64,000 bases of DNA, from contig MEUE01000001.1 of the NCBI GenBank assembly GCA_001771585.1, positions 317,789 to 381,788 of the forward strand, written 5' to 3'. Positions 2,318-63,299 of this stretch are shown piece after piece (the first letter of the stretch is position 1; every line of letters begins with the position of its first letter). This DNA comes from a candidate division WOR-1 bacterium RIFOXYB2_FULL_46_45 (lineage in GTDB: Bacteria; Margulisbacteria; WOR-1; XYC2-FULL-46-14). Under the pieces are notes generated by a model. That model was not told where the DNA came from. It saw only the letters and a list, made by a program, of their open reading frames with translations, and searched no databases. The translations under genes were made by a program, and so were the position numbers.

Positions 2318-3241
2318 ATGGAACTTTTAAAAAAAATAAGCTTCTTTGTCTTCACCATATTTATCTTTGTTCTTTTTGCCTGGGCGCTTTTTATCCCAAA
2401 AGAGGAAATAACCAAAAAAATCACCGAAGCGGCCAAAAAACAAAACACCATAAGCGACCTCTCCTTCCGCGGAGTAACGGTGCAGGAAGTTGTTGAAGGG
2501 ATAAAATATTGGGAGATCAAAGCCAAAACTTCGGAATTAAACCAGGGAAGCAACCTGGCTATTCTGCGCGAAGCCGAAGGGACCTTTTTTGAGAAGGGTT
2601 CCCCCACCCTCAAATTCATCTCGCCGGAAATTGTCTGGAAAATCGACAAAAAAGAGATAGAGATAAAAAGCCCCTTCGGCTTTGATCCCGGATCCGAAGC
2701 AAAGGTCCGGTCAATCTTGAAAGACCCCCAAAAAAACATTTTTTTCCTCCCTGCGGCAAACGGAAAGGGCTCTTATTTCAGGGCCGAGAAGCTTGACTGG
2801 AAACTCAAGGACAAAAAAATAAGCTGTGACGGGAATATCTGGATCAAAAGGGGAAAGATCATCGGGAAAGCGGAAAACCTGAAATCCGATGTCACTCTTT
2901 CAAAAGTTCTGCTGGGAGGGAACCCTTTTATCATGACTTCTTCCGATAATCCCGCCACCATTGAAGCGATGTTTTTTGAGGTGGACAATAAAAACGATTT
3001 AATTGTCGCCCGCGGCGATGTTACCATCACCAGCAACGACCGCAAGGCGACCGGAGAACTTGGGACCTATCATATTAAAAAGGACACTATTTCACTTTCC
3101 GGAAACACCCGGTTGGAGGAAAAAGGGAATTCTTTGACCGGCGAGAAAATCGTTTACCTGGTAAAAAAGAACAGTTTTACTATTTCCGGAAAGAGCCGCG
3201 CGGTAATTTCCGAAGAGAAATTGAAGGAGGGGGAACAATGA
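2318..3241 (+). CDS. lptC: LPS export system periplasmic bridge protein LptC, with OstA/LptA-like C-terminal part
   Basis: The 307-residue protein has one N-terminal membrane anchor (about residues 6-24) and a periplasmic body of alternating beta strands. L-S-F-R-G-V-T-V-Q, Y-W-E-I-K-A-K-T-S-E and the segment around A-T-G-E-L-G-T-Y are typical of LptC/OstA beta-jellyroll domains. LptC passes LPS from LptBFG to LptA or LptD. It is longer than the roughly 190 residues of enterobacterial LptC, which suggests the bridge function is partly built in; no separate lptA is seen here. The ATG follows a weak AGGTG at 2304-2308. A TATAAT at 2310-2315 is too close to that ATG to serve it. Confidence 0.8.
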   Translation: MELLKKISFFVFTIFIFVLFAWALFIPKEEITKKITEAAKKQNTISDLSFRGVTVQEVVEGIKYWEIKAKTSELNQGSNLAILREAEGTFFEKGSPTLKFISPEIVWKIDKKEIEIKSPFGFDPGSEAKVRSILKDPQKNIFFLPAANGKGSYFRAEKLDWKLKDKKISCDGNIWIKRGKIIGKAENLKSDVTLSKVLLGGNPFIMTSSDNPATIEAMFFEVDNKNDLIVARGDVTITSNDRKATGELGTYHIKKDTISLSGNTRLEEKGNSLTGEKIVYLVKKNSFTISGKSRAVISEEKLKEGEQ

Positions 3242-53659: not shown

Positions 53660-56335
53660 ATGAAAGCCCTCCTCATAGACGGAAACTCGTTAGCTTATCG
53701 CGCCTTCTACGCTCTGCCCGATACGATGAAAACCTCAACCGGCATTGTGACCAATGCCATCTACGGCTTTACTTCGATGCTTTTAAAAATTCTGGAAGAG
53801 GAGCCGGACTATGTCGCGATCTCTTTTGACTTGAAAGAGCCAACTTTTCGGCACAAAGAATATAAGGAATACAAGGCAACTCGTGAAAAAGCCCCCCCCA
53901 CCCTCCACCAACAGATGCCGTATATAAAAGAAGTGGCGGAAGCGTTTGATATCCCCATCTTTGAAATGGCAGGATATGAGGCGGACGATGTGATCGGAAC
54001 CTTGGCCAAAGAGGCGGAAAAAGAGGGCTACAACGTTGAAATAATATCGGGTGATAAAGACCCACTCCAATTGGTGACCGATAAAATTAAATTGCGGACC
54101 ACCCGCAAAGGGATCTCCGATATCGTCGTCTACGGCAAAAAAGAGATCAAGGCCCAATATAACCTGGAGCCGGAACAACTGATCGATTTGAAGGCGCTAA
54201 AAGGCGATTCGTCCGACAATATTCCCGGGATAAAAGGGATCGGAGAAAAGACCGCGTTGGAACTATTACATGAATTCGAATCATTGGATAACCTTTTTGA
54301 ACATTCGGATAAAATCAAAAAGGAACGCATTAGAAAATTAGTTGAGGAAGGAAAAGAGATGGCCCTGTTGAGTCGAATGCTGGGGACGATCAAGACCGAT
54401 GTTCCGATAGAGATAAAAATTAAGAACCAGGAAAAATACAAGATCGACTGGGACAAAGTGGTGCGGGTTTTTGAAAAATTCGAATTTGGTTCCCTGATAA
54501 AAAAGTATTCCAACCATAAACACTCCAAACAAACTCTTGAAGAAAAGAGGGAACAAATTTCCAAATTTGATTTCCATTGCGTCGATTCCGAAAATAAACT
54601 GCAGGAATTGATCAAAAAACTGGAAGCGGCCGATTCTTTCGCTTTTGATACCGAAACCGATTCGGTCTCTGCTTTGGATGCGAATTTGATCGGCATTTCG
54701 TTTTCCGTTAAACCCGGAGAAGCGTTTTATATTCCTATTGAAGGCGAGAATTCGAATTCTCGCCTTCAATTATTCAAATCAATCCTCGAATCAAATAAAC
54801 TTAAAGCCGGCCACAACATCAAATACGATATCGAGGTCCTGCTGAAATACGGCATCAAGGTCGCCCCACCCTATTTCGACACCATGGTCGCCGCCTATCT
54901 GCTTGATCCTAATTCGGACCAGCTGAACCTGAAAGCGGCCGCCGCCCGCTACCTGGGACGGCATGAAATGATCCGGCTGGACGAGCTGATCGGAAAAGAT
55001 GCCGAATATAAAAATTTCTCCGAAGTGCCGAAAGATCTGGCCGCCCAGTATGCCTGCTCCGATGCCGACGCGACGATCGGATTAAAAGAGGAGTTTGAAA
55101 AATTATTCACCGAAGGCGAGAATTCGAATTCTCGCCTTCGGAAATTATTCCATGATGTGGAGATGCCCTTGATTTCGGTTTTGGTTGAGCTGGAGAAAAA
55201 TGGGGTTTATGTCGACACCAAAATTTTAAATAAAATCTCCAAAGAGCTTGAAATTGAGATGAAGGATTTGGAGCGGAACATCTTCGCGATTGCAGGAGAG
55301 ACCTTTAATCTTAATTCACCAAAACAACTGGCGGTAATTCTTTTTGAAAAACTGAAAATACCGATCGTCAAAAAGACCAAGACCGGAGCGTCGACCGACG
55401 CGTCGGTCTTGGAAGAGTTGTCGGCCAAATTTGAGATCGCGGCAAAACTTTTGGAGTACCGCACCTATGCAAAACTAAAATCGACTTATGTCGACGTCCT
55501 TCCCGAACTGGTGCGGAAAGATACCGGCAGGATTCATGCCAATTTCAACCAAACGATCACCGCCACCGGGCGGCTTTCAAGTTCCAATCCGAACATGCAG
55601 AATATCCCGATCCGCGGCGAGCTTGGAAAAAAGGTTCGCTCCGCCTTTGTCCCGCAAAAAGAAGGATACAAGATATTGGTTGCGGATTATTCGCAGGTCG
55701 AGCTTCGCATTCTGGCCCACCTGAGTCAGGATGAACAGCTGATCAAAGATTTTAAAGAAGACAAAGACATCCACCAGGCGACTGCCGACAGCCTCGGCAT
55801 TTCCCGCTCTGCGGCGAAAGCGATCAATTTTGGGATCATCTACGGCCAGAGCGCCTTTGGATTGGCCAAGAGTTTAAAGATCGGGCGGAAAGAGGCGCAA
55901 GAGTTTATTGACAAGTATTTTGAGCGCTATAAGGGAGTAAAAAAATTTATTGACAAGACTATTAAGGAGGCAGAGGAAAAGGGTTATGTTGAGACGATGC
56001 TGGGGAGAAAGAGGGAATTACCGGATATAAACAGTCCGAACCAGTCGCTCAAATCCTTCGCCGAGCGTACGGCGATAAATACGCCGGTGCAGGGGACGGC
56101 TGCCGATTTGATAAAAGTGGCGATGGTTAATATATGGAAGAAATACCCCACAATTAATTGTGGGGATTATATGCTCATTCTTCAGGTGCATGACGAATTG
56201 GTTTTTGAAGTTCCGGACAATGAACTAGAATCCATCCAAAAAATCGTGGTGGAGGCGATGGAATCCGCTATTCCACTTTCGGTGCCGCTTAAAGTGGATG
56301 TCGGGGTTGGGGAGAGCTGGAGCGGGGCCAAATAA
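53660..56335 (+). CDS. polA: DNA polymerase I with three in-frame palindromic insertions
   Basis: At 891 residues this is a complete Pol I. The 5' nuclease domain (1-290) has L-I-D-G-N-S-L-A-Y-R-A-F-Y and E-A-D-D-V-I-G-T-L. A proofreading domain (about 315-490) keeps F-D-T-E-T-D, G-H-N-I-K-Y-D and Y-A-C-S-D-A-D. The polymerase domain has D-Y-S-Q-V-E-L-R-I-L, M-L-G-R-K-R-E and Q-V-H-D-E-L-V. Perfect palindromes encode residues 360-370 and 484-494 (both containing E-G-E-N-S-N-S-R-L) and 829-835 (P-T-I-N-C-G). All lie where loops are expected, and the frame is kept. Catalytic residues are untouched, so the enzyme should work. Confidence 0.95.
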   Translation: MKALLIDGNSLAYRAFYALPDTMKTSTGIVTNAIYGFTSMLLKILEEEPDYVAISFDLKEPTFRHKEYKEYKATREKAPPTLHQQMPYIKEVAEAFDIPIFEMAGYEADDVIGTLAKEAEKEGYNVEIISGDKDPLQLVTDKIKLRTTRKGISDIVVYGKKEIKAQYNLEPEQLIDLKALKGDSSDNIPGIKGIGEKTALELLHEFESLDNLFEHSDKIKKERIRKLVEEGKEMALLSRMLGTIKTDVPIEIKIKNQEKYKIDWDKVVRVFEKFEFGSLIKKYSNHKHSKQTLEEKREQISKFDFHCVDSENKLQELIKKLEAADSFAFDTETDSVSALDANLIGISFSVKPGEAFYIPIEGENSNSRLQLFKSILESNKLKAGHNIKYDIEVLLKYGIKVAPPYFDTMVAAYLLDPNSDQLNLKAAAARYLGRHEMIRLDELIGKDAEYKNFSEVPKDLAAQYACSDADATIGLKEEFEKLFTEGENSNSRLRKLFHDVEMPLISVLVELEKNGVYVDTKILNKISKELEIEMKDLERNIFAIAGETFNLNSPKQLAVILFEKLKIPIVKKTKTGASTDASVLEELSAKFEIAAKLLEYRTYAKLKSTYVDVLPELVRKDTGRIHANFNQTITATGRLSSSNPNMQNIPIRGELGKKVRSAFVPQKEGYKILVADYSQVELRILAHLSQDEQLIKDFKEDKDIHQATADSLGISRSAAKAINFGIIYGQSAFGLAKSLKIGRKEAQEFIDKYFERYKGVKKFIDKTIKEAEEKGYVETMLGRKRELPDINSPNQSLKSFAERTAINTPVQGTAADLIKVAMVNIWKKYPTINCGDYMLILQVHDELVFEVPDNELESIQKIVVEAMESAIPLSVPLKVDVGVGESWSGAK
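54737..54770. repeat. 34-bp perfect palindrome in polA, GAATTCGAATTC-centred family, copy 1
   Basis: Each half is ATTGAAGGCGAGAATTC; the other half is its exact complement. It codes for the peptide I-E-G-E-N-S-N-S-R-L-Q in the proofreading domain. The inner 28 bases are identical to copy 2, while the outer bases differ but remain paired. Confidence 0.95.
55110..55141. repeat. 32-bp perfect palindrome in polA, GAATTCGAATTC-centred family, copy 2
   Basis: Each half is CCGAAGGCGAGAATTC. It codes for E-G-E-N-S-N-S-R-L in the same frame as copy 1, at the junction of the proofreading and polymerase domains. Confidence 0.95.
56146..56165. repeat. 20-bp perfect palindrome in polA (CCCCACA...TGTGGGG)
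   Basis: CCCCACAATT followed by its complement. It encodes P-T-I-N-C-G just before the Q-V-H-D-E-L motif. It resembles the TTTAAA-centred palindromes at 2274 and 63207 with a shorter middle. Confidence 0.85.
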
Positions 56336-62485: not shown

Positions 62486-62587
62486 ATGAGAGAATTGAAG
62501 ATAGTAGAAGACTGGTTGTATTATTTCGGCAGACAAGAGCTTGACAATTTCATCCGGTTTTTAGAAGCATTAAACCCTTCAAAGTAA
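62486..62587 (+). CDS. Possible 33-residue helical peptide
   Basis: M-R-E-L-K-I-V-E-D-W-L-Y-Y-F-G-R-Q-E-L...S-K is a good amphipathic helix. It starts 15 bases after the 117-residue gene and overlaps the end of convergent coaX by 38 bases. AAGGA touches the ATG, too close for a normal ribosome site. It may be a decayed end of the gene before it. Confidence 0.25.
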   Translation: MRELKIVEDWLYYFGRQELDNFIRFLEALNPSK

Positions 62588-63299
62588 TATCCTGATCCAC
62601 TATATCAATCACTTTGGCATGTTTCGCGATTAGTCCGGCAAATCCGCCGGTTGCTATTATTTGAATTTTAGATTTAGGATTTCGGATTTGTTTAGAGTTT
62701 AGGGTTTCGGATTTAATTCTAGCAATCATCCCTTCAACCAACGAAACATATCCGTAAACCAATCCCGAAAGTATCGCCTCTCTGGTGTTTTTTCCGATTA
62801 GCCTTTTGGGGGGGGCAAGTACAACTTCGGGAAGCTTCGCGGTGGCTTGATGTAAAATCTTAGCGGCTAATCCGATCCCGGGAGAAATCGCTCCGCCCAG
62901 GTATTCCCCTTTGGCGGAAATCATATCAAAGGTCGTTGCGGTGCCAAAATCAACGACAATTGAAGGCGCGCCGTATAATTTATACGCCGCCAGAGCGTTC
63001 ACTACCCTATCCGCCCCTACTTCTGACTTCTTGGCTTTGACTTTTATTCCTTTTATATTTTTTGCGGTGACAAAATGGGCTTGGGGAAATCTCTTTTTAA
63101 TTATTTTGTCAGCCTTGGGGACGACGGAAGAGACGATGACGTCTCCAGAAAAGTTTGGCAGATTATGGGAAAGCTTCTTGGTTTCAACCCCCCATCTTTG
63201 ACGAATATTCCCCACATTTAAATGTGGGGAATTATCCCTAACCCCTTCAAACAAGCCAAAAGTGGTCGTAGAATTTCCGACATCAATCGCAAGCAGCAT
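62550..63299 (-). CDS. coaX: Type III pantothenate kinase, with two repeat-encoded segments
   Basis: The 249-residue enzyme has D-V-G-N-S-T-T-T-F-G-L-F-E-G, V-G-A-D-R-V-V-N-A-L and V-V-D-F-G-T-A-T-T-F-D, all needed for CoaX. It starts CoA synthesis. Residues about 23-31 (N-S-P-H-L-N-V-G-N) are encoded by a perfect palindrome, and residues about 194-212 (R-N-P-K-S-K and neighbours) by a low-complexity repeat. Both are placed between conserved motifs. It follows the RluD-family gene by 1 base. Confidence 0.94.
   Translation of the reverse strand: MLLAIDVGNSTTTFGLFEGVRDNSPHLNVGNIRQRWGVETKKLSHNLPNFSGDVIVSSVVPKADKIIKKRFPQAHFVTAKNIKGIKVKAKKSEVGADRVVNALAAYKLYGAPSIVVDFGTATTFDMISAKGEYLGGAISPGIGLAAKILHQATAKLPEVVLAPPKRLIGKNTREAILSGLVYGYVSLVEGMIARIKSETLNSKQIRNPKSKIQIIATGGFAGLIAKHAKVIDIVDQDITLKGLMLLKTG
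62663..62719. repeat. Low-complexity TTTCGGATTT repeat inside coaX
   Basis: Plus-strand units GGATTTCGGATTTG and GGGTTTCGGATTTA repeat with TTTAG spacers. The minus strand reads K-S-E-T-L-N-S-K-Q-I-R-N-P-K-S-K-I-Q, a peptide type not conserved in CoaX. Confidence 0.75.
63207..63232. repeat. 26-bp perfect palindrome inside coaX, TTTAAA-centred family
   Basis: Each half is ATTCCCCACATTT. It shares CACATTTAAATGTG with 2274-2301, with one stem pair changed on both arms. It encodes N-S-P-H-L-N-V-G-N in coaX. Confidence 0.9.

Follow-up and report, generated by a model that had tools for sequence, protein, structure and literature searches.

In-frame REPs, even in DNA polymerase I, and REPs within transposase genes have already been published. 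REPs of the GTAG and CGTC types were found in frame in many genes, including those for DNA polymerase I, uvrABD, recBCD, and tRNA modification, with loops and linkers being discussed for them (PMC3733652, 2013); the same work tied RPE-4/6 to CGTC-type repeats, which have no known transposase, and RPE-1 elements are longer. REPs with a GT[AG]G foot were likewise described in frame within the transposase genes of TnpA_REP subclass 2.4, and the same study reported no REPs for TnpA_Y1 subclass 1.2, which has the signature Y---Q--HH plus WQ, occurs in low copy number, and bears a C-terminal extension (PMC6006769, 2018).

The locus considered here is polA, located at positions 53660 to 56335 (+ strand) of the window, i.e., the whole stretch of 64,000 nucleotides that was analyzed, which belongs to a 1.70-Mb genome designated G000. 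The ORF encodes an 891-aa DNA polymerase I scoring far over the cut-off of full-length NCBIfam models (NF004397, 1090 bits; TIGR00593, 988 bits), and it carries three palindromic inserts. Two of them represent what is termed the GGCG family: a perfect 34-bp palindrome at 54737 to 54770 (aa about 360 to 371) and a perfect 32-bp palindrome at 55110 to 55141 (aa about 484 to 494). As a reading of the sequence alone (the sequence-only reading) had claimed, both are in frame, share an identical 28-bp core, GAAGGCGAGAATTCGAATTCTCGCCTTC (54740 to 54767 and 55112 to 55139), and are translated EGENSNSRL, while their outermost bases differ yet pair within each copy (ATT/AAT in palindrome 1 and CC/GG in palindrome 2). 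The third palindrome, CCCCACAATTAATTGTGGGG at 56146 to 56165 (aa about 829 to 836), is of a different family, CCCCACA. AlphaFold2 modeling (16 sequences, mean pLDDT 84.8) predicted the three inserts as loops (360-364, 485-490, and 829-837) with local dips in confidence, in agreement with the loop positions proposed earlier for palindromes 1 and 2. Insert 1 follows the strand 354-359 and its block has a lowered mean pLDDT of 70, insert 2 lies between helices 458-484 and 491-514, and pLDDT falls below 50 at residues 831-834 of the third loop.

Both GGCG palindromes had been regarded as inserted, which the comparison with relatives bore out cleanly at site 2 only. There, palindrome 2 was missing from all 29 relatives compared; the aligned block is 23 aa here and exactly 18 aa in 28 of the 29, G000 being 5 aa longer than these and 6 aa longer than the remaining one. 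Site 1, in turn, is a loop of highly variable length among relatives (18 to 71 aa in the aligned block, 22 aa here). As even the nearest genome shares just 77% PolA identity, neither a clean empty site nor a target duplication is readable. The outer codons of site 2 (ACC and CGG) are unlike those of the relatives compared codon by codon, from which we infer that they were probably co-created rather than part of a pre-existing palindromic target. An ancestral loop should show this peptide at the corresponding position in lineages lacking the palindrome; EGENSNSRL occurred there in no relative, and genome G003 has its own palindrome variant. This G003 palindrome, in loop 1, is of that genome's own subfamily and identical to the copy in G003 thiL, which points to an insertion independent of that in G000. 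Loop 1 thereby carries lineage-specific variants in at least two genera and a GTAG-type insert in a third. Long inserts of other repeat types were also observed in this loop in L031 (G022), L039 (G004), and L042 (G027), that of L031 being a GTAG...CTAC insert with the inverted pair GTAGGGAC...GTCCCTAC. In addition, the C-terminal loop preceding ILQVHDEL contains repeat-like peptides such as CQMTNVKCQM and RITNYELRM in relatives (L017, L035, L039, and L030), which suggests another recurrently modified loop.

The two polA copies are members of a dispersed family with the formula (AA)GGCG-N14-CGCC(TT). A genome-wide count, proposed by the sequence-only reading, gave 11 copies in G000, scattered with both large contigs represented and all (11/11) inside ORFs, namely, polA (two copies), ispH (two copies), gatB, wecB, lplA, genes for a NirA-like reductase and a PMT_2-type transferase, and two ORFs without a Pfam match. 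Since the coding density of G000 is about 93%, this placement shows that genes are not avoided, rather than enrichment in them. The census pattern was AAGGCG-N14-CGCCTT, the narrower GGCGANNATNNNNATNNTCGCC missing GGCGG subtypes and the two ispH copies of G000. Besides G000, the largest sets were those of two related genera, namely, of G003, with about 24 genic and intergenic copies (23 matches to the census pattern) and in-frame hosts including gatA, gltB, miaB, thiL, queC, and polA, and of G009, with 9 copies mostly between genes and one in tsaD. Nearly all other genomes of the phylum had no match to the census pattern or only non-palindromic chance matches. In an exact scan of GTDB genomes, Neomarinimicrobiota, Spirochaetes, and one Absconditabacterales MAG had the core as well. 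The order includes a Candidatus Saganbacteria MAG (G005 contig, WPAF01000008.1).

Cores vary by genus yet stay palindromic (AATTCGAATT, AAAATCGATTTT, and GATGATCATC). Among 55 aligned copies, the uninterrupted arms measured 22 to 46 bp, and sequence conservation stopped about 14 bases from the center (≤0.4 bit from position 15 outwards). The arms nevertheless still paired past the core, at position 15 in 41 of 55 copies and one base farther out (position 16) in 34 of 55, against an expected proportion of about 0.3, so that the differing but complementary outer bases first remarked in polA are a property of the whole family. No conserved asymmetric guide tetranucleotide or foot tag (GTAG/GTGG or CGTC) was found beside the core in these 55 copies. 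A chance origin was rejected: 100 shuffles of the window gave 0 matches to the 22-bp core, and palindromes of 24 to 38 bp, numerous in the 464 kb of genome sequence covered, had no counterpart of >22 bp in Markov-simulated sequence. An assembly artefact was also rejected, the family recurring in independent genomes and one ispH insert being common to G000 and genome G001.

Insert-free orthologues were available for several hosts. At the insert, gatB of G000 is 8 aa longer than in 9/9 relatives and gatA of G003 is 8 aa longer than in nine orthologues, while wecB gains 0 or 1 aa and one ispH loop 2 aa; the little net gain in wecB and at polA site 1 is attributable to the variable loops concerned. 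With gains this unequal (wecB 0/+1, ispH +2, polA +5, and gatA and gatB +8 aa), insertion must be combined with local deletion or loop drift, and no clean target-site rule was derivable, gatA and gatB each showing +24 bp and the other loops not. As for the reading frame, 15 of the 18 non-transposase copies in family-supported genes were in the EGxxxxxRL phase (P about 2e-5 versus equal phases). Read from the sequence, cores with AATTCGAATT, GATATATATC, or GATGCGCATC are stop-free in every frame, and the GATGATCATC core type, common in G009, has a stop codon in one frame. Where the ORF lacked a family match, the two copies were read in a hydrophobic phase (KARIxILAF), in one case close to the N terminus.

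The family is linked to a clade of Y1 transposases. A Y1 transposase gene of G005 contains a palindrome identical over 28 bp to the polA core of G000, and the clade to which it belongs (support of 0.96 in a quick tree) has 11 members from two phyla, found in G003 (two genes), G005, G009, and Neomarinimicrobiota. Matches to NCBIfam REP_Tyr_transpos ranged from 59.6 to 83.3 bits, with a cut-off of 80. An in-frame palindrome lies between the HUH and Tyr motifs in 10/11 members, six of which additionally have flanking palindromes; a palindrome-flanked transposase (REPtron arrangement) occurs in G003, G009, and the Neomarinimicrobiota loci L171, L197, L198, and L200. Both His residues of HUH and the Tyr were invariant in the nine aligned members. 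Alignment and motif scan together recovered the Tyr motif Y---Q in 10/11 members (e.g., YILKQKKHHDL, YILKQQKHHGL, and YILNQHEHHEL), the motif scan finding none in L201; Saganbacteria-side members show Y---Q--KH and L197 shows Y---Q--RH, with WQ present in all. Within the phylum, the clade is restricted to G003, G005, and G009, and all three have GGCG palindromes. In G000, no copy of a transposase of this clade was detectable. A search of plasmids for the transposase returned nothing.

Two Y1 transposases outside this clade, L065 and L087, are still present in G000. The former (G000:C1:696665) is flanked by CCCCACA-type palindromes (L065 1432-1463 and 2016-2049; family formula CCCCACA[AT]TTAA[AT]TGTGGGG), and the third polA palindrome and an L065 transposase flank have the 25-nt string AAATACCCCACAATTAATTGTGGGG in common. 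Two further palindromes of this type lie in the window, one at 63207 to 63232, which a coaX-like ORF (62550 to 63299, - strand) carries in frame close to its start, and one at 2274 to 2301, between the ORFs at 1661 to 2263 and 2318 to 3241. A 26-mer identical to the coaX-like insert was seen near a transposase of another genus (L066 3116-3141). The transposase ORF of L087 (11478-11759; G000:C3:101478, - strand) contains GTAGAAACGCCCCGACGGGGCGTTTCTAC (VETPRRGVSTET), a GTAG-type palindrome. Elsewhere in G000, a perfect 26-bp palindrome, GTCATGCAAAATATATTTTGCATGAC, lies beside the HIGH motif of an aminoacyl-tRNA synthetase-like ORF (L096 6392-6417; G000:C3:406392) and matches no recognized family, and a perfect 38-bp palindrome, AGGCCGTAGGGAACGAAAATTTTCGTTCCCTACGGCCT (L106 9072-9109; G000:C1:909072), is possibly of the GTAG type.

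Taken together, we consider it probable that the GGCG palindromes of polA represent a REP-like, non-autonomous element spread by a Y1 transposase that has since been lost from G000. The earlier suggestion of a mobile palindrome tolerated inside an essential protein is supported by the 11 genomic copies, mostly in unrelated housekeeping genes, and also by the insert-free orthologues, the lineage-specific variants, and the linkage to the transposase clade. A Y1 (HUH/single-tyrosine) enzyme cutting and joining single-stranded hairpin DNA would have dispersed the GGCG palindrome from which the polA copies would descend; relatives would have kept this enzyme, with the palindrome in its own gene and often adjoining it, and G000 would have lost it. 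With the stop-free cores common in G000 readable as EGxxxxxRL, insertion into a surface loop would add or replace a few hydrophilic residues and the protein would survive, and selection would then retain copies at tolerant loops and in the EGxxxxxRL phase. The complementarity of the arms past the conserved core suggests that one flank may be an inverse copy of the other, made either during insertion or through later quasi-palindrome correction. More tentatively, and with more doubt than confidence on our part, a Y1 subclass thought to be partnerless (Y---Q--HH) might mobilize a perfect-palindrome element that is usually housed in protein-coding genes, with inverse flank copying on insertion and with certain loops serving as recurrent landing sites.

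The palindromes might instead serve to bind a host chromosome protein (for nucleoid organization, segregation, or repair), being selected as DNA and simply accommodated by the genes. Their perfect two-fold symmetry and scattered positions on both large contigs would suit such sites, as would the ispH copy common to G000 and G001, in which the palindrome is 26/28 identical and the flanks 69%, a difference that could alternatively reflect constraint on the DNA. We regard this as unlikely, because only about 11 to 24 copies exist where the family is present, most relatives have none, the core differs between genera while being palindromic throughout, and copies occur in and next to a transposase gene. 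Another alternative is a mobile palindrome moved by some other enzyme, for example, the CCCCACA-family transposase of G000, with the transposase-internal copies as passengers. G000 indeed has two other Y1 transposases and lacks the GGCG clade, and unrelated palindrome types also lie inside other transposase genes; but each such gene has its own, distinct palindrome type, and GGCG palindromes occur within or adjoining the genes of a single clade across two phyla, which makes another mobilizing enzyme quite unlikely.

Local formation within gene loops through template switching (quasi-palindrome correction), with no transposition involved, would account for arms that are complementary outside the conserved core and for the small or absent net length gain in several loops (wecB and polA site 1). 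It cannot, however, yield the same 28-bp core in unrelated genes plus the transposase gene of another family, nor the additional 24 bp in gatA and gatB, and we judge it very unlikely as the source, although template switching may act on the palindromes after insertion. Finally, EGENSNSRL recurs in several proteins, as would be expected of a protein motif that is ancestral or under selection, with DNA symmetry being incidental. Other copies are nevertheless read in a different phase (RRGFESSPS and KARIRILAF), G003 and G009 also have copies between genes, and selection on the protein is not expected to give synonymous palindromic symmetry. In polA itself, an ancestral loop was rejected on the grounds that relatives had no match to the peptide and a shorter block at site 2, and such a motif is the least probable of these explanations, being highly improbable.

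The reading of a REP-like element moved by a Y1 transposase would make polA part of a compact natural case of a mobile DNA element writing peptide loops into essential enzymes, a repair polymerase among them, and would give a transposase subclass previously listed as REP-free a proposed substrate. Both the insertion mechanism and the protein tolerance become directly testable through the frame bias, the lineage variants sharing a polA loop, and the complementarity of the flanks.

Among known systems, the likeness to Rickettsia palindromic elements noted in the sequence-only reading holds for behavior, i.e., in-frame inserts in functional proteins (here polA, gatB, wecB, ispH, lplA, gatA, gltB, miaB, and thiL), on a comparison by description, and REP sequences with RAYT transposases are the better parallel. 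Like these, the GGCG family comprises short palindromes in several lineage-specific variants, with a Y1 transposase link and in-frame coding copies. Its arms (22 to 46 bp) fall within the REP length of about 20 to 65 nt, and a cognate transposase is present in G003, G009, and Neomarinimicrobiota and absent from G000. It differs in being uninterrupted and near-perfectly palindromic without a GTAG or CGTC tag, and, whereas REPs are mostly extragenic and usually exceed 100 copies, G000 has 11 copies, all in ORFs, and G003 about 24 in mixed locations. The transposases resemble TnpA_REP subclass 2.4 in that a palindrome lies in frame between the HUH and Tyr motifs, with further copies adjoining the gene, but the Tyr motif is Y---NP in class 2 (including 2.4) and Y---Q--[HKR]H in the GGCG clade. 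Judged by sequence features, the clade resembles TnpA_Y1 subclass 1.2, with which it shares Y---Q--HH, WQ, an extension at the C terminus, and low copy number; that subclass was reported REP-free, whereas genes of the GGCG clade contain and adjoin palindromes. A literature search combining the lineage with palindromes found no prior description. Thus, the GGCG family itself, its perfect symmetry without a tag, its placement inside genes in G000, its association with a transposase type carrying the motifs of a REP-free subclass, and arms complementary past the core appear to be new relative to the REP systems described so far.
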